DNA of 64,000 nt from Providencia sp. (GTDB lineage: Bacteria; Pseudomonadota; Gammaproteobacteria; Enterobacterales; Enterobacteriaceae), in the NCBI RefSeq assembly GCF_003533305.1, contig NZ_DOEH01000013.1, positions 32,696 through 96,695 on the forward strand. The letters run 5' to 3'. The notes below the pieces were generated by a model. That model saw nothing but the letters and a program-made list of their open reading frames with translations. It did not search any database and was not told the origin of the DNA. Below, piece by piece: positions 6,340 through 18,311 of this stretch. The position numbers were made by a program, and so were the translations under genes. Positions within the stretch are counted from its first letter, which is position 1, and the number at the start of each line of letters is the position of its first letter.

Positions 6340-7197
6340 ATGTTAGCTAACGCTCAAATTATTGATATTAACGAAACCAATTTACATCAAGTCATTGAAC
6401 AATCGATGACTTTGCCTGTCATGTTTTATTTTTGGTCTCCGCGCAGCCCACATTGCCAAGATCTTGGATTAACACTTGATAAGATTGCCAATGAGTATGC
6501 AGGCTTATTTATTTTAGCTAAAGTTAACTGTGATGAAGAGCAAATGGTCGCCAGCCAATTTGGCCTAAAAGCGATCCCAACCGTCTATATATTGCAAAAT
6601 GGTCGTCCTGTTGATGGCTTTGAAGGCCCGCAACCAGAGGAGGTTGTGCTGGAAATGCTTTCTCGCGTACTGCCAAGCCCTGAAGAGCTAAAAGCTGCAC
6701 AAGCCGCTGAATTACTCGCAGAAGGTAAAGCTCAAGAAGCCCTGCCGCTGCTAAAAGAAGCTAATCAAATCAATCCTAAAAATAGTGATATCACGCTGTT
6801 ATTAGCAGAAACACAAATTAATTTGAATTTGACTGATGATGCACAAATCACCCTTGCCACTGTACCGATGCAAGACAAAGATAGCCGCTATCAAGGGTTA
6901 ATTGCACAAATCGATTTATTAAAGCAAGCTGCTGATACGCCTGAAATTCAGCAATTGCAGCAAGAATTTAATCAAAACCCAGCAGATACCACCCTTGCTG
7001 TGCAGCTTGCCCTAAAACTACATGAAGTAAACCGTAATGAAGAAGCACTAGAACTGCTACTGGCATTCTTGAAAAAAGATTTAAATGCCGGAGACGGTGC
7101 AGTTAAGAAAACAATGATGGATATCATGTCAGCAATGGGTACCGGCGATTCATTAGCCAGTAAATACCGCAGACAAGTTTATTCATTACTTTACTAA
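6340..7197 (+). CDS. cnoX: Chaperedoxin CnoX (thioredoxin fold plus TPR)
   Basis: This 285-residue protein (E. coli YbbN/CnoX 284) has a thioredoxin domain at residues 1-110 followed by TPR-like helices. The usual CxxC is replaced by SPHC (residues 36-39), as in E. coli (SQHC), so it is not a dithiol reductase. The second cysteine that forms mixed disulfides in E. coli CnoX is also kept (Cys64 in KVNCDEEQ). CnoX protects proteins from over-oxidation and unfolding under bleach stress and hands clients to GroEL/ES and DnaK; this is family knowledge. The start has an AAGAG-like site. qmcA follows 13 bases downstream. Confidence 0.95.
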
Positions 7198-7210
7198 TTA
7201 AGGGCTTAAT

Positions 7211-8155
7211 ATGGACTTGTTCGCGTTTGGTGCTATACCGATTATTATCTTTTTCGCCATTGTTATTGTTTTTACCTGTGTAAAAACAGTGCCGCAAGGA
7301 TTCCAATGGACTGTTGAACGTTTTGGTCGTTACACTCGAACGTTACAACCGGGTTTGCATTTTATCGTTCCATTTATGGATAAAATAGGCCGTCGCATCA
7401 ATGTGATGGAACAAGTCCTTGATATTCCATCCCAAGAAGTCATTTCACGAGATAACGCCAACGTCACTATTGATGCTGTGTGCTTTATTCAAGTGGTTGA
7501 CCCGGTTCGCGCTGCTTATGAAGTCAGTAATCTTGAGTTATCTGTACTTAATTTAACCATGACCAATATTCGTACCGTATTGGGTTCAATGGAATTAGAT
7601 GAAATGCTTTCCCAGCGTGATTCCATCAATAACCGCTTACTGCATGTTGTTGACGAAGCGACCAACCCTTGGGGTGTAAAAATCACCCGTATTGAAATTC
7701 GTGATGTAAAACCGCCGAAAGAATTGATTAGCGCGATGAATGCTCAAATGAAAGCTGAGCGTACTAAGCGTGCCGATATTCTTGAAGCTGAAGGTATTCG
7801 ACAAGCCGCCATCCTAAAAGCAGAAGGTGAGAAGCAATCTCAAATTCTAAAAGCGGAAGGTGAACGCCAATCTGCGTTTTTACAAGCAGAAGCTCGTGAA
7901 AGAGCGGCAGAAGCGGAGGCTAAAGCCACTCAAATGGTATCAGAAGCTATTGCAGTTGGTGACATGCAAGCGATTAACTATTTCGTAGCACAAAAATATA
8001 CCGATGCTCTAATTAGTATTGGTTCTGCTGAAAATAGTAAAGTGATCATGATGCCACTAGAGGCAAGTAGTTTAATGGGAGCAATCGGTGGTATCACTGA
8101 ACTTATTGGCGACAGTACTAAAGCTAGAGCTGATAAGAAGCAGGTAAACAAATGA
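7211..8155 (+). CDS. qmcA: SPFH/band-7 membrane protein QmcA
   Basis: This 314-residue SPFH protein has one N-terminal membrane helix (about residues 5-25), the prohibitin-like domain containing [15 protein letters not shown], and a long charged coiled coil rich in Glu, Ala and Lys (about 185-260, with repeats like ILKAEGEKQ). QmcA forms large oligomeric cages in the inner membrane, often with an NfeD-type partner. That partner, ybbJ, is encoded next with a four-base overlap, so translation is probably coupled. QmcA was found in E. coli as a multicopy suppressor of an ftsH htpX double mutant. Confidence 0.95.
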
Positions 8156-8631
8156 TAGAACTCATCAGCACTCAGCCCGCATGGTTTTGGCTATGTCTCG
8201 GTGGTTTATTGCTGATTAGTGAACTCATTGGGACTGGCGGCTACCTATTATGGACAGGTATTGCTGCCGTGCTGGTCGGTTTTATCGCCCTCGTATTGCC
8301 ATTTCTCGGTTGGGAATGGCAAGGTATTTTGTTCGCTATTTTTACCATTGTTTCTGCTGTGTTATGGCGAAAATGGCTTAGTGGGCGGCAAAACACTAAA
8401 GCTGACGATGTAAACCAAATTAGCCACCAGCTAATAGGTATTAAGGCACGTTTACTTACGGATACCGAAGAAGGTTTCAGCCGTGTACGTTTGGCCGACG
8501 GAAGCTGGCGTATCTATTCAGATATCCCACTTTTAGCGGATACCGAAGTGGTTGTTATTACTGTCGACGGTATCACGTTAAAAGTTAAGCCTTACTCTGA
8601 TGACAGCAACCACGAGCAAGATGGTCAATAA
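8152..8631 (+). CDS. ybbJ: NfeD-like membrane protein YbbJ
   Basis: This 159-residue protein has two to three N-terminal membrane helices (about residues 10-75) and a C-terminal OB-fold-like NfeD domain (about 90-150, ending in the typical [10 protein letters not shown]). It is the usual partner of the SPFH protein QmcA, whose stop overlaps this start. Its last 47 bases are antisense to the 3' end of cueR, so the two convergent transcripts overlap in coding sequence. E. coli YbbJ has 152 residues. Confidence 0.92.
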
Positions 8632-8995
8632 TCGGGCAGTCTGCACCATCATCACCGGGACATTCATCCACTAATTTTTGCAACGTATCTCGTATGGCAG
8701 ACAATTTCACCATTGTCTGCTCTATTTCTTGCACTTTTGCGATAGTCGTCGTTTTCACATCCGAACTATGTCTGGTTGGGTTTCGAAATAATCCCAGTAA
8801 TTCACCGCATTCATCGAGAGTAAACCCAACATCTTTAGCTTGCTTTAATAACACCAGTTCATCAAAGTGTCTATCTTGATAATAGCGATAACTATTATCA
8901 CCGCGTAAAGGAGGAGTAATTAAGCCTTTATCTTCATAAAAGCGAATCGCTTTTGCGGTCAAACCTGTTTTTTTCGCAATTTCACTAATATTCAT
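8585..8995 (-). CDS. cueR: Copper-responsive MerR-family regulator CueR
   Basis: This 136-residue protein is close to E. coli CueR (135). It has an N-terminal winged helix ([25 protein letters not shown]), a dimerisation helix and the metal loop [10 protein letters not shown]. The two cysteines there bind Cu(I) with very high affinity. The C-terminal CC pair (GCCHQ) is also kept. CueR activates copA and cueO by twisting promoters with a 19-bp spacer, and one such promoter lies directly upstream at 9004-9034. The 3' end overlaps ybbJ on the other strand. Confidence 0.95.
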
Positions 8996-9003
8996 AATTT
9001 TCC

Positions 9004-9034
9004 TTGACCTTAACCTTGAAGGAAGGTTTAACCT
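9004..9034 (+). promoter_or_regulatory. CueR-dependent promoter with 19-bp spacer
   Basis: A -35 TTGACC and a -10 TAACCT are separated by 19 bases that contain the inverted repeat AACCTT...AAGGTT. This closely matches the E. coli copA promoter as I recall it. It points rightward, towards the copper-binding gene at 9203. The cueR start lies just to the left and reads the other way. Confidence 0.85.
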
Positions 9035-9152
9035 CTACTACATAGTTAAATGATAGATTAAGTTGATGCCTAATTATACACCCTAAACCATTCGAATGCA
9101 GATAGGTTGTCGGTAAAGCCAAAGTTTTATGGCTATGACTGAAAGTTTTACG

Positions 9153-9190
9153 CAGCCAACACCCCTGTAGCTCGAAGAATGACGGGTAAA
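9153..9190 (+). repeat. Dispersed intergenic repeat, copy 3
   Basis: GCAGCCAACACCCCTGTAGC followed by TCGAAGAATGACGGGTAAA matches copy 1 at most positions. It lies in the leader between the CueR promoter and the start codon of the copper-binding gene, and ends 12 bases before that start. Confidence 0.75.
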
Positions 9191-9202
9191 ATGGAGAATA
9201 AA

Positions 9203-9598
9203 ATGAATAAGATAATACTTTCCCTACAAGGACTCACTTGCAGCCACTGTGTGGGCTCCGTGACTAAAGTACTACAAGCTCGTGATGATGTTGAAAGTGC
9301 TAAAGTCACTCTTGAGTATGCTGTTGTTGAGGGCAGTGCTAGTGCTGATGCATTAATTGCAACTATTGAACAAGATGGATATCAGGCGGCTGTTGCTACA
9401 ACGCCGGATGTTGAGTTGCAATTGTCAGGTTTGAGTTGTATGAAATGTGCGGGTAAAACGCAACAAGCACTTGAGGCTGTTGAAGGCGTTGCTGGCGCTA
9501 TTGTTGATACTGAACGCGCTAAAATTTATGGCAAAGCTTCAACTGACAGCTTGATTAAAGCGGTTGAGCAAGCGGGTTATCAAGCGAACGCAATCTAA
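9203..9598 (+). CDS. Stand-alone twin heavy-metal-associated domain protein (CopA N-terminal domains only)
   Basis: This 131-residue protein consists of two HMA domains and nothing else. The first has the copper site GLTCSHC (about residues 10-16), the second GLSCMKC (about 78-84). The order, the spacing and the ends resemble the N-terminal metal-binding part of E. coli CopA, but the P-type ATPase that should follow is absent: the frame stops right after the second domain and a terminator comes next. Position (beside cueR) and promoter also match copA. It could be a copper chaperone of the CopZ kind or a remnant of copA. The start at 9203 has GGAG seven bases upstream; an ATG at 9179 lies in the repeat. 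Confidence 0.85.
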   Translation: MNKIILSLQGLTCSHCVGSVTKVLQARDDVESAKVTLEYAVVEGSASADALIATIEQDGYQAAVATTPDVELQLSGLSCMKCAGKTQQALEAVEGVAGAIVDTERAKIYGKASTDSLIKAVEQAGYQANAI

Positions 9599-9635
9599 AT
9601 ATTGTTGTTTTGCATTAAAGTACGCCAATATTAAA

Positions 9636-9671
9636 TGAAAATAGCCCTAGTTCGATATCGGGCTATTTTCA
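9636..9671. terminator. Bidirectional terminator
   Basis: A perfect 12-bp stem (TGAAAATAGCCC with GGGCTATTTTCA) separated by 12 bases lies between the copper-binding gene and the convergent PTS operon. Both arms end in A/T-rich runs, so it can stop transcripts from either side. Confidence 0.85.
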
Positions 9672-9694
9672 ATTTAGAATCAAATTTTTACTCT

Positions 9695-10012
9695 TTAGTT
9701 TTTCTCTGCCACTTTTTTATGCAACATGATGATTTCACGCCCTAATTCAGTCAACATAATCGCATTCATTAGGTGGTCTTGAGCATGAACCATGATGATA
9801 TGAACGGGAACTTTACCAGTTCCTTCATCCATTTCAATTAATCGTGTTTGAGTGTGATGCGCAATGGATAATGCATCTTGAGCCTGCTGCATTAAACTTT
9901 CCGCTTCAGCAAAATCATTATTTTCACGTGCAACCGCAATGGCTTGAAAAACTAAGCTTCGTGCATAACCTGCATTAGTAATCAGCTCCATGACTTCATT
10001 TTCGAGATCCAT
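9695..10012 (-). CDS. PTS EIIA, lactose/cellobiose (Lac) family
   Basis: This 105-residue all-helical protein is of the ChbA/LacF type. The phospho-accepting histidine should be His76 in VHAQDHLM, which carries phosphate from HPr to the EIIB encoded just upstream. A conserved Asp (HAQD) is present for the trimer metal site. It is the last gene of a five-gene operon, nine bases after the IIB stop. Lac-family PTS proteins usually carry disaccharides such as chitobiose, cellobiose or lactose; the neighbours here suggest a GlcNAc-containing compound instead. Confidence 0.92.
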   Translation of the reverse strand: MDLENEVMELITNAGYARSLVFQAIAVARENNDFAEAESLMQQAQDALSIAHHTQTRLIEMDEGTGKVPVHIIMVHAQDHLMNAIMLTELGREIIMLHKKVAEKN

Positions 10013-10021
10013 ACTGACTCC

Positions 10022-10327
10022 TTAATCAATCAGCGCTAATGCTTGGTCTAATACTTTATCCCCTTTCAGGGTTCCATAGGCCATCATATCGATACACTCA
10101 ACTTTTTTACCTGCCGCATCGGCAATTTTTTGACATTCTGCTAGTTTGTAACGAATTTGTGGGCCTAAAAGCGCAACATCAAAATCATTTACACAGGCTT
10201 TATAATCACGCACCGACTTTGCCGTAATTTCAGCGTCAATACCACGTGTTTTAGCCGCTTCTTGCATTTTTTTAACCATCAGACTTGTGGACATTCCTAA
10301 ATCACAAATCAATAAAATTTTTTTCAT
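10022..10327 (-). CDS. PTS EIIB, lactose/cellobiose family
   Basis: This 101-residue EIIB has the phosphorylation loop CDLGMSTS with the active Cys8. It passes phosphate from EIIA to the incoming sugar at EIIC. I start it at 10327 (MKKILLICDLG) because this is the usual IIB start and a GGAG site lies before it. A longer frame to 10345 would run into the aminopeptidase end. It begins one base after the stop of the M17 peptidase gene, so the two are probably translationally coupled. Confidence 0.92.
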   Translation of the reverse strand: MKKILLICDLGMSTSLMVKKMQEAAKTRGIDAEITAKSVRDYKACVNDFDVALLGPQIRYKLAECQKIADAAGKKVECIDMMAYGTLKGDKVLDQALALID

Positions 10328-10328
10328 A

Positions 10329-11801
10329 TTATTTCTCCAAGTCATTCATAATATGTTGAATTAAAAGCGGAATCGGTCGACCAGATGCTGTGCTATAACC
10401 ATTCTCACGCCATAATGCTGTTCCACTAACATCTAAATGCGCCCAAGGTAAATCGGTGGGGCAAAATAGACTTAAAAAGTAAGCAGCTGATGCACTTATT
10501 GCCGCATTGTTACTCGGTGTATTACACGCATCCGCAATATGACTTTTCACCTGTCCTGCAAGACGTTTATCCAAGGGCAACGCCCAAATCTCATCACGAC
10601 TATCCAGACCTGCCTGATGCAAATCGGCACTCAATGCCATATCTGAGGACATGAGTCCGGTTAAGTCATAACCCAATGCTTTCACAACGGCTCCGGTTAA
10701 CGTCGCCACGTCAATAATATATTTTGGCTGTAATGTGCTGGCGTAAGCAATCCCATCAGCCAATACCAGTCGACCTTCTGCATCTGTATTATTAATTTCT
10801 ACGGTTAAACCTGAGTAACTCGTCGCAATTTCACTCGGGCGCATAGCCTCTGGACCTATCATGTTCTCTGCCAGCATCAAGATCCCAACAAGATTAACTG
10901 GCAATTTCATTTCTGCTGCGGCAACGAGTAAACCAAAAACGTTAGCAGCACCGCACATGTCATATTTCATGGTATACATGCCATCACCACTTTTTAACCA
11001 ATAACCACCAGTATCATAGGTCACACCTTTCCCGACATATGCACGGCAACGATTATTAGCATCATCGCTACCTTGATAGCGAATAATAACAATACGAGGC
11101 GGATTCTTAGCGCCCTTACCAACAGCATGAAGCAAACCAAATCCTTGGGCTTTGACTTCTTTTTCATCTAAGATTGAGGCAGAAAGTGAAGGATAGTTAG
11201 CAATCACAGAAGTCACTGTGTCTGCCACAAAAGCAGGCGTACAAATATCACTCGGGATATCCGCTAATTGCCGTGCATCAATCATACCTTTACTCACACA
11301 AAAGGCGTGTTGTGCTAATTTATTTAACTCATCTACTTGCTCAACATGACTATAAAAAATCAAATTTTTAATTTTCTGAGTCACAGTTTGAGTGGTTTTA
11401 AATTGCTGATCATCAAGGCTATAACTTTGATTAAACAGTAAAATCAATAGCTGCTGGCAGGCACCGCGATGTTTCGCTTGGCTAAGGTCAAATAACCGAC
11501 AATCTACGCATACATTGGCTAGTGGCGCTTTAACCAAAGAACGAATATCTGTAAGTAATTGCCCTTCAGGCCATGATAACCAATGATTTTCAGGAATTAG
11601 CGTCAAACGCCCCACGGGCTCACAGCCAAATTGGCAATCGGCAATTTGTCCATTCGCGCTGTAATTATTAAGCTGTTCCACTAATGGACTACGGAGACCT
11701 AATTGTTTTAACAAGTCACTTTGCGGATAAGTAATAACTTGTGTCGTAGAAAGTGCCTGAGTAAACGCTTTGCTCTCAATAATAATTTGATAATTAATCA
11801 T
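10329..11801 (-). CDS. M17 (leucyl aminopeptidase family) metallopeptidase
   Basis: This roughly 490-residue cytosolic peptidase has the M17 metal and catalytic blocks: GKGVTYDTGG, the lysine of YWLKSGDGM, MKYDMCGAANV and NTDAEGRLVLADG. These bind two metal ions and remove N-terminal residues from peptides. It differs enough from PepA and PepB that I give no symbol. The start at 11801 (MINYQIII) has GGAG nine bases before it and overlaps the upstream glycosylasparaginase stop by eight bases. An in-frame start at 11843 would overlap that gene more. Its place inside a PTS operon is unusual and suggests the imported substrate includes an amino acid or peptide part. Confidence 0.88.
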   Translation of the reverse strand: MINYQIIIESKAFTQALSTTQVITYPQSDLLKQLGLRSPLVEQLNNYSANGQIADCQFGCEPVGRLTLIPENHWLSWPEGQLLTDIRSLVKAPLANVCVDCRLFDLSQAKHRGACQQLLILLFNQSYSLDDQQFKTTQTVTQKIKNLIFYSHVEQVDELNKLAQHAFCVSKGMIDARQLADIPSDICTPAFVADTVTSVIANYPSLSASILDEKEVKAQGFGLLHAVGKGAKNPPRIVIIRYQGSDDANNRCRAYVGKGVTYDTGGYWLKSGDGMYTMKYDMCGAANVFGLLVAAAEMKLPVNLVGILMLAENMIGPEAMRPSEIATSYSGLTVEINNTDAEGRLVLADGIAYASTLQPKYIIDVATLTGAVVKALGYDLTGLMSSDMALSADLHQAGLDSRDEIWALPLDKRLAGQVKSHIADACNTPSNNAAISASAAYFLSLFCPTDLPWAHLDVSGTALWRENGYSTASGRPIPLLIQHIMNDLEK

Positions 11802-12762
11802 AATGTAACGCTCCATCGATAGGCTCTCTGATCCGCGTTTCATAATCTTGTAACCAATTGCTATCGGCTAGCCTATAGGTCGTGTGCTCATCATGGCGAT
11901 CCGCTAAATAAACGGTTGGTGACATATTGGCGGTCGCCACAACAAATGAGAAAGTTTTGATATTCGTAGCCACGCCAAATTCACCCAGTGCATTCATACA
12001 CACCACAGATAAATCACCACAACGGCCAAATCGCTTCATTAATTTATCTTCTAGCTCAAGTACCACTGAATCCGCGGCCTGTTGTGGAGTTAAACCGGCA
12101 GCCATACGTCGAACAATCTCATAGCTCGTACAGCCTTTCATTAGATCTTCACCAACACCCGTTGCGGTAGCACCGCCAATTTCGCTATCACAATAAAAAC
12201 CAGAACCAATTATTGGTGAATCCCCGACTCGACCTCTACGTTTCATAAATAGCCCACTGGTAGAAGTTGCTACGCTCATACTGCCTTGTAAATCTAACCC
12301 GACCATACCGACAGTATCGTGGCCATCATATGGGCTCAATCCTTTATCGATGGTCTCTCTACAACGCTTTTTATAATGTGCAATTGATCTTTGCGTTAGC
12401 ATTTTTTTCTGCGCAAAACCTTGCTCGATAGCCCACTCTCTGGCTCCACGTCCAACTAATAGCGAATTAAATCGTTCTCGACTTAATGCATGTGCGACAC
12501 GTACGGGATTCGCAATATCGATCAAATTACCGACTGCACCAAATGCGAGAGAATCGCCATCCATAAAAGCTGCATCTAACTCAACTTCACAGTTTTCACT
12601 GGGTAATCCGCCATAACCGACCGATTTATATAAAGGAAAATCCTCAACATCAGAGACTGCCTCTACGACAGCGTGGGATGCGCTTTCACCATGGTTCAAC
12701 ATGCCTGTCGCTCGAGTGACACCTTCTAAGGCCATACGCCATGTTGCTATAATTCCCCACAT
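11794..12762 (-). CDS. Glycosylasparaginase (N4-(beta-N-acetylglucosaminyl)-L-asparaginase) family Ntn-hydrolase
   Basis: This 322-residue protein belongs to the glycosylasparaginase branch of the Ntn-hydrolases. The autocleavage and catalytic site is GHDTVGMV: Thr150 should become the N-terminal nucleophile of the beta chain. The following blocks TSTSGLFMKRRGRVGDSPI and GGATATGVGEDLM are the substrate-binding loops seen in human AGA and the Elizabethkingia enzyme. The enzyme cuts the bond between GlcNAc and asparagine in GlcNAc-Asn, releasing aspartate. No signal peptide is visible, so it should act in the cytosol, after import. It is the second gene of the PTS operon. An isoaspartyl-peptidase role is possible but fits the motifs less well. 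Confidence 0.88.
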   Translation of the reverse strand: MWGIIATWRMALEGVTRATGMLNHGESASHAVVEAVSDVEDFPLYKSVGYGGLPSENCEVELDAAFMDGDSLAFGAVGNLIDIANPVRVAHALSRERFNSLLVGRGAREWAIEQGFAQKKMLTQRSIAHYKKRCRETIDKGLSPYDGHDTVGMVGLDLQGSMSVATSTSGLFMKRRGRVGDSPIIGSGFYCDSEIGGATATGVGEDLMKGCTSYEIVRRMAAGLTPQQAADSVVLELEDKLMKRFGRCGDLSVVCMNALGEFGVATNIKTFSFVVATANMSPTVYLADRHDEHTTYRLADSNWLQDYETRIREPIDGALHYD

Positions 12763-12795
12763 AACAGCTCCTTGAATTTCTAATAAAACAACAAA

Positions 12796-14079
12796 TTATA
12801 CTTTCTGTTCAGTGGCTAAATACTGTTTATCAATGATGCGCAAGAAGGGTAAATAGATCATCGCGCCAATCAATAAATTAATAATTTGCATAATACTGCC
12901 GCTTATATGCCCCGTGACGATGAAACCACTAATTACCGGTGGCAATGTCCATGGAATAAACACCCCGGTCGTTGAAGCCACAGCTCCTAGGCTCATTGCG
13001 ATATATTGCGTCGTGATAAGCACGAGTGGGACGAGATTGAATGGGATCAACATAATCGGGTTCATAATGATAGGTAGCCCGAAGAGGATCGGCTCATTAA
13101 TGTTGAAAATTGAAGCGCCAGCCCCTATTCGTCCAACTTCACGAATACTTTTACTACGCGCAAAAATCAGCATTGCTATCACTAAAGATAAGGTCGCTCC
13201 TGCCCCACCCATCCAAACCATGTCAAAAAATTGTTCTGTAATAACATGAGGAGGTGTTACACCAGCTTGAATAGCGGCAATATTGTCTGTCTGATTTTCC
13301 ATCCAAAGTGGACGAATAATACCGTTGACCATCGATCCTGAATTTATTCCTACAGACCATAACAAAGTAATACTCAACCCAGTTAACAGCGCACCAAAAT
13401 ATGAAGTCCCAAAGTGGCGCATCGGTGTTGCAAGCGTTTGATAAATAAATTGATGAACTGTTTCATAGCTGGTTTGGGCAACTAAAGTACGGATTGCTAA
13501 CACTAAAATCACCACCAATAACGCAGGGATCAGTGCCGCAAAAGATTCTTGAACAGCAGGTGGAACGCCTTCTGGCATTTTGATCACCCATTTTTTGCGT
13601 TTGATATAGCAAAAAAGTTCAGTCCATATTAATGAACCAATCATCGCTACAAACAGACCTTTACTACCAATCCATTCAGTCGAGATTACAGTGACATTCC
13701 CTAATGATTCTGCTTTTAAAAAAGGGGTCAAAATTAAAAAACAGATCAAACCCAAAATTCCACAAGAAACTTGGTCTTCCTCATAATGCTCCGCTAAACG
13801 GTACGCGACCATAAAGCTGATAAATAACGACATAGTCGAAAATACGGCATTAAAAGGGATTTCAACAATACTGGTCCAGCTCTCGCCAAAAATACCACTC
13901 ATAAATTGTTGATAGGCCTGATTCGGAAAGGACGAAATAATTAGCATCACCGAGCCGACGATGATAAATGGCATAAAAGAGACATAAGCCCCGCGAATTG
14001 CGCATAAATGCCGTTGTGATGCAGCTTTTGCAGCTAATGGCATCAGCTTAGCTTCTAAGTAATCAAGTACCTTACTCAT
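12796..14079 (-). CDS. PTS EIIC, cellobiose/chitobiose (Lac) family
   Basis: This 427-residue membrane protein has about ten hydrophobic segments. It shows the CelB/ChbC hallmarks PPHVITEQFFDMVWMGGAGA and FNINEPILFGLPIIMNP, the second of which contains the NEP sugar-binding motif. It is the channel that imports and helps phosphorylate the substrate. It is the first gene of the operon, with a GGGAG site before the ATG. Because IIC, IIB and IIA are separate and interleaved with hydrolases, the whole operon (9695-14079) forms one catabolic unit. The 215-bp region upstream (14080-14294) is shared with a divergent regulator-like gene, and I see no convincing operator in it. Confidence 0.92.
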   Translation of the reverse strand: MSKVLDYLEAKLMPLAAKAASQRHLCAIRGAYVSFMPFIIVGSVMLIISSFPNQAYQQFMSGIFGESWTSIVEIPFNAVFSTMSLFISFMVAYRLAEHYEEDQVSCGILGLICFLILTPFLKAESLGNVTVISTEWIGSKGLFVAMIGSLIWTELFCYIKRKKWVIKMPEGVPPAVQESFAALIPALLVVILVLAIRTLVAQTSYETVHQFIYQTLATPMRHFGTSYFGALLTGLSITLLWSVGINSGSMVNGIIRPLWMENQTDNIAAIQAGVTPPHVITEQFFDMVWMGGAGATLSLVIAMLIFARSKSIREVGRIGAGASIFNINEPILFGLPIIMNPIMLIPFNLVPLVLITTQYIAMSLGAVASTTGVFIPWTLPPVISGFIVTGHISGSIMQIINLLIGAMIYLPFLRIIDKQYLATEQKV

Positions 14080-14294
14080 GGTAAATCTCCCATAAAAGGC
14101 GATATTGGATATAACAGACGAAAGTTATTGAGCATTTTAGTTACGTTGTTTTGGTTAATTATCTGTCTATTTGCCAGCGTTTTGATTATTGCCTAAGGCA
14201 ATTTAAATAAAGTTGCGATACGTCACAGTATTTAGTACCAAATAAACTAGTCTCATAAGATTGAATACCACCTCATTTAGAAGAGGAGTTTGAG

Positions 14295-15170
14295 ATGGAA
14301 ATAAAATTACATGCTAACGCGACAACGACACCTCGAGTTCGCCGCTACCTGCAACAGTCAGACAAAAGTGACCGCGAGCTTGCTAAAGAATTAGGTATTT
14401 CGGTTTCTACCGTACGACGTTGGCGCATAAGGCAAGATGTTGAGGATCAGAAATCCACCCCACGAAATGTACACAAGGTAATGAGACAAGAACAAATTAA
14501 TCTAGCCCTTTGGCTAAGAACACACTTTGTTTTACCTCTGGATGAGCTCATCACTTATGTTAATGATGGCATGGGACAAGCTATTTCACGGGCAAGTTTA
14601 GATAGGATGCTGAAAAAGGGGAATATGGTTCATATGAATATTCTTGGCACCCGAGTTTTAAAAGGGAAAAAAGCCTTGAACAGTGGCCTGCATTGCGGAA
14701 CATTGAAATTACGCTATCGTCGATTGAATTTACTACCTCAAGATGATGGGCAACTTCATTTACTCTGGTTAGAAGAACAGGTCAGCGGCTATTTGTGCAT
14801 CGCAATCTTTCAAGGAATATCTGCACAACTCGTCGTCAATTGGTTAAATGAAATACAACCCAGCTTACCGGCTGCTATACAAAGTCTTGAGACTGAAAAT
14901 AAAACGCTATTTTTAGAATCTGTATTTGAAGAGCACCCATTGCAACAATGGTGTAGCCAACAGAATCTCAACTTAAGTTATTTTGATGTTGAAAATGAGG
15001 CATCAATACGACTTGAAATACCATTTTCTACGCTAATACCTGCGGCACAAAACCTAACTGTAGCCGAGTTTTTATCAAGCGTTATCCTTCACCATAACGC
15101 GCACTGGCCTCAAAAGAAATTGGGCGGTTTAACACCAGCAGAGTTCTGGCGTCAAAATAGCCACTTATGA
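14295..15170 (+). CDS. IS481-type transposase-derived HTH protein, catalytically eroded
   Basis: This 291-residue protein keeps the N-terminal layout of IS481-family transposases: LHANATTTPRVRRYL, a helix-turn-helix (RELAKELGISVSTVRRWR, about residues 29-46), a second HTH region (about 65-110), and the integrase-tail motif GGLTPAEFW at the end. The DDE catalytic residues look lost: where the first Asp should be the sequence reads LLWLEEQ, and the second Asp site reads ENKTLF. It has a strong GAGGAG ribosome site and no frameshift, so the gene appears maintained. It is divergent from the PTS operon, which makes a regulatory role plausible. No IS ends were recognised. Confidence 0.7.
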   Translation: MEIKLHANATTTPRVRRYLQQSDKSDRELAKELGISVSTVRRWRIRQDVEDQKSTPRNVHKVMRQEQINLALWLRTHFVLPLDELITYVNDGMGQAISRASLDRMLKKGNMVHMNILGTRVLKGKKALNSGLHCGTLKLRYRRLNLLPQDDGQLHLLWLEEQVSGYLCIAIFQGISAQLVVNWLNEIQPSLPAAIQSLETENKTLFLESVFEEHPLQQWCSQQNLNLSYFDVENEASIRLEIPFSTLIPAAQNLTVAEFLSSVILHHNAHWPQKKLGGLTPAEFWRQNSHL

Positions 15171-15283
15171 TTATAGTAAACAGAACAACACGTAAAGAAA
15201 GGAAATAATCCCTTGAGTTATTCGCAAATCCACCCAAGATTGTTTAACCTAAGCAACTGAAACTTAAAGTCGGTGGGTTACAC

Positions 15284-16084
15284 ATGGGAAAGCTACTCGA
15301 AAATTTGAAAAATTGGCTACATACTGAAGTCGCACCAGTATATCCCTATCCTGCTGCTGATATTCGTTTATCAAAAAAACTAAAACTGCATATTGTCGGT
15401 AGCATTCATATGGGAACAGAAAACATGTTTCCTTTATCTGCGGTACTTTTAGAAAAACTCAACCAAGCGGATGCGTTGATTGTAGAAGCAGATATTACCG
15501 ATAATTATTCCCCCTTCCCCTCACAAGCCGCAGCACAGGTGAAGGTAGAAGAACGACTTACCAAAGAAGAGTATGCGTTGTTTTTACAGTATTGTCAGGA
15601 AATTCGCCAAGAACCAAGCCAATTCGATAGACTGCCCGCTTGGCAAATTGCACTGATTTTGCAGGCGACTCAAGCTCAAGAACTGGGTTTAAGGGGTTAC
15701 TATGGCATTGACTATCAACTCTTACGCAGCGCTCAATCGCAACAAAAAGAAATGATTGAACTTGAAGGAACTGATTCGCAAATTGAGCTACTGCTCAAGC
15801 TACCGAATCAAGGTTTAGCGCTATTACAAGACTCCCTTGTCCATTGGCGAGCGAATGCACGCTCTTTACAAACCATGATTAGCTGGTGGCTTGATTATCA
15901 ACCTAATCATTGTGCGACATTGCCCAATACCTTCAGTGAAGATGTTTACCAAGCCTTAATGGTTAAGCGCAACCAAGCTTGGAGTGAAAAATTAAAAGCA
16001 CTACCAGATGGAAACTATGTGGTGGCTGTTGGTGCTTTGCACCTATTTGGTGAAGGCAGCCTTGTTGATTATTTACGTAAGTAG
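15284..16084 (+). CDS. ybaP: TraB/PrgY-family protein YbaP
   Basis: This 266-residue protein matches E. coli YbaP (264) along its length. It has the TraB-family blocks GSIHMGT near residue 40 with a conserved His, LIVEAD near 65, YGIDYQLL near 145, ELEG near 165 and GALHLFGEG near 255. Family members carry conserved His and Glu residues and some are proposed metal-dependent proteases; the function of YbaP is unknown. It precedes ybaK by 26 bases as in E. coli. Confidence 0.93.
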   Translation: MGKLLENLKNWLHTEVAPVYPYPAADIRLSKKLKLHIVGSIHMGTENMFPLSAVLLEKLNQADALIVEADITDNYSPFPSQAAAQVKVEERLTKEEYALFLQYCQEIRQEPSQFDRLPAWQIALILQATQAQELGLRGYYGIDYQLLRSAQSQQKEMIELEGTDSQIELLLKLPNQGLALLQDSLVHWRANARSLQTMISWWLDYQPNHCATLPNTFSEDVYQALMVKRNQAWSEKLKALPDGNYVVAVGALHLFGEGSLVDYLRK

Positions 16085-16110
16085 TTGATTAGAAAATAGC
16101 AGGTATAAAT

Positions 16111-16587
16111 ATGACACCCGCAGTAAAATTACTCGAAAAACATAAAATTCAATTTATCTTACACCCTTACGACCATGACCCAAATGAGCATAACTTTGGT
16201 GATGAAGCCGTCAATAAATTAGGGTTAGATGCTAAACAGGTATTTAAAACCTTGTTAGTGGCATTAAATGGCGATCAAAAAACGCTGGCAGTCGCAGTCA
16301 CACCGGTTTCTGGTCAATTGGACTTAAAACTGGTAGCTAAAGTCTTCAAAGTAAAAAAAGTCGAAATGGCCGACCCGCAAATAGCACAAAAAACAACGGG
16401 CTATTTACTCGGTGGGATCAGCCCTCTTGGTCAGAAAAAACGTCTGCCTACCGTTATTGATAGCCAGGCCAAACAATATGACACGATGTTTATTTCAGGT
16501 GGAAAACGCGGACTTGACATTGAATTAGCGCCAAATGCCCTTGCTGAGGTATTAAACGCGACTTTTGCGGAGATAAAAAAAGACTAA
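16111..16587 (+). CDS. ybaK: Cys-tRNA(Pro)/Cys-tRNA(Cys) deacylase YbaK
   Basis: This 158-residue editing domain (E. coli 159) hydrolyses cysteine mischarged onto tRNA(Pro), acting with prolyl-tRNA synthetase. The conserved lysine in QVFKTLL and the blocks [13 protein letters not shown] and [13 protein letters not shown] are present. The gene follows ybaP and ends just before a terminator facing ushA. Confidence 0.96.
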
Positions 16588-16595
16588 CCTAGCAA

Positions 16596-16617
16596 AAAGC
16601 CCCATCTCTGGGGCTTT
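16596..16617. terminator. Terminator between ybaK and ushA
   Basis: An 8-bp stem (AAAGCCCC with GGGGCTTT) and a 6-base loop lie between the convergent ybaK and ushA stops. A-rich sequence precedes it, giving a T-run for ushA on the minus strand. Confidence 0.8.
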
Positions 16618-16640
16618 GAATATCAATCTATTACTGCTGA

Positions 16641-18311
16641 TTATTTATTTTTATAAACAATCTCACCTTTCGGCTCATAATCAGAAGCTTTCAATGGAGA
16701 ATGTTTCTCAATGTAGCCTTTAAGCACTTCTGCATCAACAAAACCGGTATTTACATAGTTTGGATGATTATCAATTTTAGGGTAACCATCGCCACCGATA
16801 GCATTAAAGTTCAATGTCGCCATGCGATAAGTTTTTGATGTATCTACAGGTTTACCATCAATCTTAACATCGCTAATAGTGCCATCTGCATTTAATGTCA
16901 GATTAACATTATAAAATTGTCCATAAGCGCCCGCGTCAGGTTTCATATTGGCAACCGCTTGCAGATAAGGAATGACTTCATCACCTTTAAAATCAACATA
17001 CACCAATTCATTGGCAAATGGCTGAACTTTCAGCACATCTTTATATGTTATCTCACCAGCTTCAATTGAATCACGAACACCACCACCACTCATAATGGCA
17101 AAGTCAGCACCCGCACGCTCTTTTTGTGCCGCTAACAACAAATGACCCATGTTAGTTTGGACAAAACGAACTTTACTACGATCACCTTCTAATTTACCGT
17201 CAACTGAACCTACTTTCACGCCAAGTTGTGTGTCACCTTTTTCTTGATAAGGCGTCAACAATTTAGTCATTTCAGGATTATGTGCAATTTCTTGAGTGTA
17301 ATAGACGCGCTCAGTCGTCCCATCTTCTTTAGTAACTTTTTTCTTTAAATTTACAGGGATCAATTGATAATGTTTTAGTGTGAATTTGCCATTTTTAAAT
17401 TCAAAATCAGCACGACCTACATATTTACCCCATTCATGGGCTTGAACAATCCAAGTGCCATTTTGGTTATCAGGTGCACAAGGTGTTCCCGGTACATAAT
17501 CAGCTTGTTTGTAATCTTTATTTTCTTTTGACATACAAACAGGATCTTGTGAGTGTCCACCCACAATCATATCTAAATAGCCCGCAGGTAAACTACGCGC
17601 CATTTCCACATCGCCGGGTGCATTTGAACCGTGATTACCATTGTCATAATGTCCCATATGGGTTGCCGCAATGATAATATCTGGTTTTTCAGTTTCACGA
17701 AGCTCATCAACAACTTTTTTGGCTTCTTCTGCTGGAACACGAAATTCAACATCAGGGAAATTAGCCGGATTACCAATTCGAACAGTATCATCCGTTGTCA
17801 GCCCCATCACCGCAATTTTCACACCTTGCTTATCAAAAATTTGATAAGGCTTAAATAGACGTTTACCGGTACTAGTTTGATAAATATTAGCGGAAAGGAA
17901 TGGGAAAGTAGCCCATTTTTCTTGTTGGCGCAATATTTCAAGTGGATTATCAAATTCATGGTTGCCCAGTGCCATTGCATCATAACCCACTAAATTCATC
18001 CCTTTAAAGTCAGGTTCTGCATCTTGCAGATCAGACTCAGGAACACCTGTATTAATATCACCACCAGATAGCAGTAATACACTGCCGCCTTGTTTAGCAA
18101 CTTCATCACGGATTTCATCAACAACCGTTTTTTGTGCCGCTAAACCATACTCTCCATTATCATTGTGCCAAAAGTGCCCGTGATGGTCATTCGTATGTAA
18201 AATAGTAATATTATAGGCTTTATCTTTTTCCCATGCGTTTGCCAATGCCGCTGGTAATAGCGCCAAAGACACAGTTAACGCACATACTGATGCCTTAAAT
18301 GTAAACTTCAT
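16641..18311 (-). CDS. ushA: Periplasmic UDP-sugar hydrolase / 5'-nucleotidase
   Basis: This 556-residue protein (E. coli UshA 550) has a signal peptide ending at about residue 25 (LPAALANA). The metallophosphoesterase domain carries the two-metal site: HTNDHHGHF, the Asp of GGDINTG, GNHEFD, THMGHYD and GGHSQD. The C-terminal substrate-specificity domain includes FNAIGGDGYPK. In the periplasm it breaks down nucleotide mono-, di- and triphosphates and UDP-sugars for salvage. It is divergent from fsr, as in E. coli. Confidence 0.97.
   Translation of the reverse strand: MKFTFKASVCALTVSLALLPAALANAWEKDKAYNITILHTNDHHGHFWHNDNGEYGLAAQKTVVDEIRDEVAKQGGSVLLLSGGDINTGVPESDLQDAEPDFKGMNLVGYDAMALGNHEFDNPLEILRQQEKWATFPFLSANIYQTSTGKRLFKPYQIFDKQGVKIAVMGLTTDDTVRIGNPANFPDVEFRVPAEEAKKVVDELRETEKPDIIIAATHMGHYDNGNHGSNAPGDVEMARSLPAGYLDMIVGGHSQDPVCMSKENKDYKQADYVPGTPCAPDNQNGTWIVQAHEWGKYVGRADFEFKNGKFTLKHYQLIPVNLKKKVTKEDGTTERVYYTQEIAHNPEMTKLLTPYQEKGDTQLGVKVGSVDGKLEGDRSKVRFVQTNMGHLLLAAQKERAGADFAIMSGGGVRDSIEAGEITYKDVLKVQPFANELVYVDFKGDEVIPYLQAVANMKPDAGAYGQFYNVNLTLNADGTISDVKIDGKPVDTSKTYRMATLNFNAIGGDGYPKIDNHPNYVNTGFVDAEVLKGYIEKHSPLKASDYEPKGEIVYKNK

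Follow-up and report, generated by a model that had tools for sequence, protein, structure and literature searches.

A Phosphotransferase Operon Enclosing a Glycosylasparaginase in Providencia sp. and Its Putative Regulator, a Probably Domesticated IS481-Type Transposase

Introduction

What does an operon take up when a glycosylasparaginase is encoded among the components of a sugar phosphotransferase system (PTS), and what controls it? The question is raised by five genes at positions 9695 to 14079 of a 64,000-nucleotide stretch of DNA (hereafter the window) from the 4.39-Mb draft assembly of Providencia sp. (GCF_003533305.1, contig NZ_DOEH01000013.1), for which a sequence-only reading had suggested the import and cleavage of N-acetylglucosamine-asparagine (GlcNAc-Asn). 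We conclude that the locus is probably a catabolic operon for glycoprotein remnants under the control of a dedicated, domesticated transposase. The transposase-like protein is encoded by a divergent open reading frame (ORF) at 14295-15170, which the sequence-only reading did not mention and which we regard as the most informative part of the locus.

Results and Discussion

The genes in question are as follows (positions in the window):

12796..14079, minus strand: PTS IIC of the lactose/cellobiose family, 427 amino acids (Pfam PTS_EIIC, 6.7e-58; NCBIfam lacE subfamily TIGR00410, 435 bits against a cut-off of 236)
11794..12762, minus strand: glycosylasparaginase (AGA, N4-(beta-GlcNAc)-L-asparaginase), probably cytosolic (Pfam Asparaginase_2, 9.1e-62; Thr150 nucleophile; TWRMA loop)
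10329..11801, minus strand: M17 leucyl aminopeptidase, 490 amino acids from the ATG at 11801 (Pfam Peptidase_M17, 7.1e-104)
10022..10327, minus strand: PTS IIB of the lactose/cellobiose family (Pfam PTS_IIB, 9.8e-21; Cys8 in LLICDLGMS)
9695..10012, minus strand: PTS IIA of the lactose/cellobiose family (Pfam PTS_IIA, 1.9e-29)
14295..15170, plus strand: divergent 291-amino acid protein, probable regulator and putative domesticated IS481-type transposase (N-terminal pair of helix-turn-helix units; RNase H-like domain lacking the Asp-Asp-Glu [DDE] triad)

The operon genes, none of which contains an internal stop, follow one another on the minus strand in the order IIC-AGA-M17-IIB-IIA. They are packed as tightly as the sequence-only reading had described, with 33 bp between IIC and AGA, an 8-bp overlap of AGA and M17, and gaps of 1 bp (M17-IIB) and 9 bp (IIB-IIA), and the families are those it had named. 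The starts at 11801 (M17) and 10327 (IIB) appear more likely than others because the upstream ATGs enlarge the overlaps. All three PTS components, including a IIB with its cysteine, are of the lactose/cellobiose family, and the NCBIfam model closest to IIA is that of N,N'-diacetylchitobiose IIA (PRK10454, 104.5 bits, under the cut-off of 148). Aligned to 3h8e, the M17 protein has the blocks GKGVTYDTGG, MKYDMCGAA, and NTDAEGR. The whole genome contains one Asparaginase_2 protein, twelve IIC matches, and a strong nagA match about 118 kb from the operon on the same contig.

Comparison of gene neighborhoods, which the sequence-only reading had proposed as a check, finds the co-occurrence conserved. 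The grouping is not a chance one because no more than 200 bp separate IIC from AGA in 67 of the best 80 of 543 confirmed AGA loci in the genome collection, the set to which the neighborhood counts refer (loci are cited by number, as in L046); an M17 gene is present in 63 of the 80. The same comparison yields points that weigh against our reading. IIB and IIA are both in the operon at 11 of the 80 loci and IIB alone at 5, and 45 of the 51 closest loci (L013-L016, L019, L021-L060) have neither a visible IIB nor a visible IIA in the operon, a count that includes L046, where the stretch ends 166 bp past M17 and cannot be judged for these subunits. M17 is absent from four Vibrionaceae-type loci (L061, L063, L064, and L068) and is therefore not essential to the layout. 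The operon is also patchy: of 24 genomes from the genus of the window, this one alone has it together with the regulator. As for the missing subunits, all 11 of the IIB/IIA-less genomes examined (18 genomes were examined overall) have at least one other lactose-family IIA gene, so it is possible that such operons borrow subunits, for example from the chitobiose system.

The plasmid collection and the E. coli collection, searched in near-match mode only, gave no near DNA match, and a location of the operon on plasmids or in E. coli was set aside; a protein-level search of plasmids gives relatives in Enterococcus and Latilactobacillus. In Clostridium sp. KNHs214, four contigs (L073-L076) carry one and the same AGA with equal identity, probably an assembly effect.

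The Glycosylasparaginase and Its Predicted Substrate

The AGA protein belongs on the glycosylasparaginase branch of its family, and hydrolysis of GlcNAc-Asn is predicted from its sequence. Its best relatives in the PDB are glycosylasparaginases (1p4k and others, 2.9e-52). The autocleavage motif that the sequence-only reading had pointed to is present as GHDTVG, with Thr150 at codon 12313-12315, and D149, T150, G152, R178, and D181 are invariant in 22 aligned sequences. We take D149 and T150 to be the autocleavage site with its Thr nucleophile, and R178 and D181 (in GRVGD) to be substrate residues. A different possibility is that the PTS imports another conjugate (for example an Amadori product of the fructose-asparagine type, or another glyco-dipeptide) and that the AGA-like protein is an isoaspartyl peptidase or asparaginase. 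Asparaginase_2 does include isoaspartyl peptidases, and the sequence does not settle the substrate; however, the named isoaspartyl peptidases are far more distant from AGA (1.2e-32 or weaker) than the glycosylasparaginases are, six of the nine genomes with this AGA hold a second, more distant protein, assigned at family level to Asparaginase_2, and a similar Enterococcus locus is reported for GlcNAc-Asn. We therefore consider this possibility unlikely and retain GlcNAc-Asn as the predicted substrate.

AGA begins directly at the conserved fold without a leader and is therefore expected to be cytosolic. Four AGAs outside the PTS-linked branch (L157-L160) have about 40-65 residues of open frame ahead of the fold, which leaves room for a leader. 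According to PMC6960285, the glycosylasparaginase of Elizabethkingia (Flavobacterium) has a signal peptide and AsnA2 of Lactobacillus casei has none. The Elizabethkingia enzyme (1p4k, 9gaa) resembles the operon AGA in family, autocleavage Thr, and the GRVGDSP and ATATG blocks, but has TWNF where the PTS-linked branch has TWRM.

This N-terminal loop offers a lead on how a phosphorylated sugar might be accepted. TWRMA is found in all 22 aligned proteins of the PTS-linked AGA branch, and also in the Bacillota AGAs of Enterococcus (L115) and Latilactobacillus (L116); AGAs outside the branch have TWDF (L157, L158) or TWEH (L159, L160). Arg9 lies in the sugar loop beside the conserved Trp and is a candidate ligand of the 6-phosphate. 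The loop does no more than touch on the question of phosphorylated-sugar acceptance, on which the proposed route depends, and would narrow it to one candidate residue. A point against is that W-R-M is present in L156, a distant AGA relative outside the branch in which the D-T site is absent; hence the invariant Arg is no proof of a PTS role.

Known Sugar-Asparagine Systems

When the locus was read from sequence, no described PTS for GlcNAc-Asn was known to the reader, a statement now overtaken: the title of Combret et al. 2024 (Res Microbiol 175:104169) reports that use of GlcNAc-L-asparagine by Enterococcus faecalis depends on the ega catabolic and transport enzymes. According to PMC11160706, the ega locus combines the gene of a glycosylasparaginase, EgaG, with genes for a dipeptidase, a GntR regulator, and the EIIB and EIIC components of a lactose/cellobiose PTS. 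It is thus like the Providencia operon, where AGA also adjoins lactose/cellobiose PTS genes, in combining a glycosylasparaginase, a PTS of this type, and a peptidase gene (EgaG being likened here by description only), whereas its gene order is different and its GntR regulator and dipeptidase contrast with the putative domesticated transposase and M17 aminopeptidase found here. Genes of the same kinds can be seen on an E. raffinosus plasmid (L115) in the order GntR-dipeptidase-AGA-IIB-IIC-IIA and an AGA 52% identical to that of the operon, and L. curvatus (L116) has a comparable AGA locus. A local GntR-type regulator was rejected for the Providencia operon: neither a GntR regulator nor a dipeptidase was recognised among the ORFs of at least 80 amino acids at 7000-17500, judged by eye and, for those scanned, by Pfam and NCBIfam.

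A second system, the alf-2 operon of L. casei for Fuc-GlcNAc-Asn, comprises an intracellular glycosylasparaginase, AsnA2, and a peptidase gene, PepV (PMC6960285). There a permease of the major facilitator superfamily takes the place of the PTS, and the operon as described has a fucosidase, a ROK kinase, and a GntR regulator, and no PTS. The same source gives PepV as dispensable for growth of L. casei, which weighs against the role that we propose below for the M17 aminopeptidase.

The metabolic idea is therefore already known, and the operon is a gammaproteobacterial version of it with a different peptidase and a different regulator. Uptake of GlcNAc-Asn, cleavage by the glycosylasparaginase, and delivery of GlcNAc-6-phosphate (GlcNAc-6P) to the nag genes, the core of the sequence-only proposal, stand as the best reading given the AGA branch, the presence of nagA, and the loci of E. 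faecalis and L. casei; what that proposal lacked is the regulator. If true, PTS uptake of GlcNAc-Asn would be extended from Gram-positive bacteria to Enterobacterales, Vibrionaceae-type, and Pasteurellaceae-type bacteria. The operon itself was not found in searches confined to open-licence papers and judged mainly from their listings.

A Transposase-Like Protein Linked to the Operon

The protein encoded at 14295-15170, hereafter the regulator, has a counterpart in 65 of the 80 AGA loci, and each of these 65 belongs to the 67 in which IIC adjoins AGA. In one clade (clade 1; 51 loci and the window) its gene is divergent and upstream of IIC, and in the other (clade 2; 14 loci) it stands at the far end of the operon. 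Of 394 genomes in the order, among them that of the window, 9 have a full-length regulator match (at least 249 bits), and the same 9 contain this AGA type (at least 549 bits, the next best score being 241); the two genes are less than 2.5 kb apart in each. The pair is patchy yet stays together. Buttiauxella strains are among the carriers of the operon (L067, L069, L071, L079, L080). The closest named relatives of the regulator are from Providencia, and in its own genome it has a single match. Two loci with IIC and AGA lack a regulator (L062 and L086) and count against strict linkage, as do Clostridia-type loci, which also lack one; L062 and L086 both have another gene order, and the L062 contig ends shortly past AGA.

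Several lines of evidence suggest what this protein is. The IS481 family model gives it 48.8 bits against a cut-off of 224, and all other models that name it are likewise below their cut-offs. A profile hidden Markov model of the regulators matches the intact IS481 transposase of L096 over its full length (188 bits, 5.7e-58). The predicted structure (predicted local distance difference test score 83.5) shows the helices for a pair of N-terminal helix-turn-helix units together with an RNase H-like domain, and its best Foldseek matches are the IS21 transposase IstA (1.7e-8, whole-chain template modeling [TM] score 0.38) and retroviral integrases (core 1bl3, TM score 0.67 on the target). The DDE triad is found in none of 66 regulators, in all 7 intact IS481 relatives (a transposase with an internal stop, L218, was excluded from this set), and in none of 12 PfaR proteins, which are discussed below. 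Conservation is concentrated in the DNA-binding half, with 33 of the 35 invariant columns of the regulator alignment within the first 104 residues. When a tree is built from the N-terminal part, the regulators fall into a single clade (support 99) with subclades at 100 and 98, and PfaR forms a clade of its own (99); the branching order of regulators and PfaR is weakly supported (56). By these sequence and model comparisons the protein looks like a catalytically dead, domesticated transposase. One observation against this is that the first Asp of the triad is retained in 13 of 14 clade 2 regulators (0 of 52 in clade 1). The triad columns are alignment-dependent in the decayed half, L061 for example having T-D-N one column off the second Asp.

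Intact IS481-type elements (L212-L219, L224) resemble the regulator in full-length protein homology, and their terminal inverted repeats (TIRs) resemble the operator described below; they differ from it in having the DDE triad (7 of 7 proteins checked), TGT-tipped ends, and, in some genomes, several copies. A live insertion sequence can be rejected for the divergent ORF, given the lost triad, the single match in the genome, and the linkage to the operon. It could instead be a degenerate insertion sequence that happens to lie beside the operon and has no regulatory role, a view to which the transposase-like family matches and the lost triad lend some credit. However, the ORF is kept beside the operon, at either end, in 65 of 67 loci and in 9 of 9 genomes, its invariant columns cluster in the helix-turn-helix half, the frame is at least 271 amino acids long in 65 of 66 cases, and it faces a conserved box and promoter spacing. 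A functionless remnant is accordingly very improbable, and we continue with the regulator as the favored interpretation. The one short frame (190 amino acids) is in Trabulsiella odontotermitis L052, where the M17 gene is split as well, as if the operon were decaying.

The Promoter and Its Boxes

The promoter of IIC was examined in an alignment of 52 divergent intergenic regions, those of the window and 51 loci. The features concerned are:

14247..14266, minus strand: predicted operator box ATTCAATCTTATGAGACTAG, resembling a transposon end (conserved in the 52 regions; TIR-matrix comparison below)
14213..14227, minus strand: CRP-like site TGTGACGTATCGCAA, centered at -41.5 from the inferred start, with a weak right half here
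14185..14190, minus strand: putative -10 AATAAT of the IIC promoter (at least 4 of 6 positions TATAAT-like at the exact spacing in 52 of 52 regions; function predicted)
14874..14900, plus strand: AIQSLETEN codons in the regulator gene, the place of a second box in relatives (not significant in this genome, p = 0.278)

The -10 hexamer is GATAAT in 37 regions, CATAAT in 8, and AATAAT in 7; by chance, about 7% of hexamers reach 4 of 6 matches to TATAAT. Its spacing sets a TGTGA-type CRP site at -41.5 and the center of the box at -77.5 to -78.5. The strict box pattern AATCNNRTGAGAYT is found in 43 of the 52 regions and a looser pattern in 48. TGTGA-N6-TCAC occurs in 45 of the 52 promoters, the window not among them, and the weak right half-site in this genome is a point against CRP control here. 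A near-palindrome near the -10, TTGCCTAAGGCAA (about 14190; 14187-14202, ATTGCC-TAA-GGCAAT), was set aside, as it is not conserved in the alignment rows shown. When up to 2 mismatches are allowed, the 17-mer core of the operator matches nothing in the genome but itself, a result of little weight because a backward control also gives 1 hit.

Many relatives have a second, inverted box. All 14 clade 2 loci have a box upstream of IIC, and 13 of them have an inverted copy that begins 29-46 bp ahead of the IIC start and is weak in two loci, L066 and L064; L077 is without a good second box, contrary to expectation. A consistent box upstream of the clade 2 regulator gene was not found: the best scores, about 10 bits, come from differing positions in L061 and L068, and the other 12 loci reach at most 6.2. 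In clade 1 the second box falls inside the regulator gene, where it coincides with the codons for the IQSxET motif; it is inverted relative to the first box, which lies about 600 bp away (L010, L027). The motif is present in 46 of 52 regulators, and its real codons fit the box better than synonymous recodings do (median p 0.003; p < 0.05 in 43 of 46), which therefore points to selection on the DNA itself. In this genome the synonymous-codon test gives no significance to the intragenic box, which weighs against extending the conclusion to the window.

Resemblance of the Operator to Transposon Ends

If the regulator descends from a transposase, its operator might resemble the ends of a transposon. 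Paired TGT tips served to locate the ends of seven IS481 relatives, all intact or nearly so, and a TIR matrix of 20 columns was built from 14 ends with the tips omitted; L224, with more distant ends, and L223, in which no ends were found, were left out, and the left end of the G693 element fits the matrix poorly. This matrix was run over 23 upstream regions chosen for diversity from 66. In all 23 it coincides with the box in register (offset 0), and it ranks the box, among 274-442 places per region, first in 17, second in 3 (L066, L072, L068), third in 2 (L011, L067), and seventh in 1 (L020); in L066, L067, L072, and L068 the inverted second box takes the top place. Of 300 column-shuffled matrices none does as well (-128.2 against a mean of -50.4, standard deviation 12.1, best -97.9), and the reversed, complemented, and reverse-complemented matrices give -48.5, -37.0, and -60.1. 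Over whole loci, a comparison that covers all 66 (mostly about 34,000 places each), the box is first in 15, in the top ten in 41, and of median rank 6. The operator box resembles the ends of intact IS481 relatives.

Some results argue for caution. The operator of the window is only 89th of 127,962 places in the 64 kb by the TIR matrix, the promoter regions are related by descent so that their ranks are not independent, and the box seed that placed the operators was written after the promoter alignment and the first TIRs had been seen. The box might then serve some other factor and resemble transposon ends only by coincidence. In favor of this reading, the box is partly palindromic (perfectly so in L027), like many operators, it agrees with the ends only in part of the core, and an earlier, opposite comparison was equivocal, an operator matrix ranking the left ends of the two copies of the G039 element 2nd and 13th and the right ends 48th and 45th of 7960 places. 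On the other side are the register, ranks, and shuffled controls of the TIR-only matrix, the lack of a box upstream of IIC (by eye) in the two regulator-less loci L062 and L086, and similar boxes upstream of pfaR in 9 of 12 loci. On balance another factor is improbable, and we prefer the box as the operator of the transposase-like regulator. The idea of operators derived from transposon ends was not found in searches of the same scope, open-licence papers judged mainly from their listings.

PfaR as a Precedent

In 58 further genomes of the order, the search with the regulator gave matches mainly to the N-terminal 120 residues, a few extending to about residue 200. These genes are most likely pfaR: in 8 of 8 examined the gene adjoins a frame of at least 1483 residues, and the one of these checked is PfaA (2326 bits). 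According to PMC4744452, PfaR is a regulator of the omega-3 (pfa) genes with a predicted Mu-transposase-like fold in which the catalytic residues are not conserved. PfaR is the precedent for a regulatory role of 14295-15170. The two share the IS481-type helix-turn-helix half, the loss of the DDE triad, and a place beside (reported, for PfaR) target genes; PfaR differs in its own clade, its C-terminal half, and its targets.

In a sample of 12 of the 58 genomes, the best match of the TIR matrix is 77-165 bp upstream of pfaR in 9 loci (L177-L180, L182-L184, L186, L188) and elsewhere in 3 (L181, L185, L187). The pfaR boxes are oriented like the left end of the transposon, and in L179 and L180 a tandem second box is present as well. 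With its N-terminal double helix-turn-helix, lost triad, and linkage to a target cluster, the regulator is by sequence a PfaR-like domesticated transposase on a new target, and transcriptional control is predicted.

A Model for the Operon

We predict that IIC, IIB, and IIA take up GlcNAc-Asn or glycopeptides of very few residues, adding a phosphate to C6 of the GlcNAc, and that the M17 aminopeptidase, which some relatives lack, trims residues ahead of the glycosylated Asn. AGA would cleave itself before Thr150 and then split GlcNAc-6P-Asn into aspartate and 1-amino-GlcNAc-6P, with Arg9 as the candidate phosphate ligand. The amino sugar would decay to GlcNAc-6P and ammonia, and NagA, whose gene is present, may take GlcNAc-6P onward.

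The operon would be transcribed from a promoter of the CRP class II type. Its control would lie with the divergent protein, which with its retained helix-turn-helix units may bind the box at -78. Because many relatives have a second, inverted box across the promoter or inside the regulator gene, pairing of boxes is expected: the regulator would bring two boxes together much as a transposase does with the ends of its element, and would keep the operon silent until it binds the substrate or the phosphorylated form. As to the sign of control, we lean toward repression relieved by the substrate with CRP activating, and activation by the regulator, as is reported for PfaR, is nearly as likely. A bolder and more doubtful version is that of a frozen transpososome, in which the regulator would still read transposon-end sequences and silence the operon by pairing two end-like boxes, either across the promoter or from the promoter to its own gene, like a synapsis of a transposon that can no longer be cut, and in which the decayed catalytic domain would now serve as a sensor of the sugar-amino acid, PfaR being a second case; we offer it tentatively. 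If true, the two halves of a transposon would both have been kept in bacteria, the DNA-binding enzyme as a regulator and the end sequences as its operators, with intact relatives available for comparison, and a principle shared with the PfaR of the omega-3 genes is suggested.

Beyond the IIA end of the operon, 9179-9598 encodes a 139-amino acid protein with two heavy-metal-associated domains that resembles the N-terminus of CopA without the ATPase; its gene is divergent from that of a MerR-like regulator at 8585-8995, the latter named by eye.

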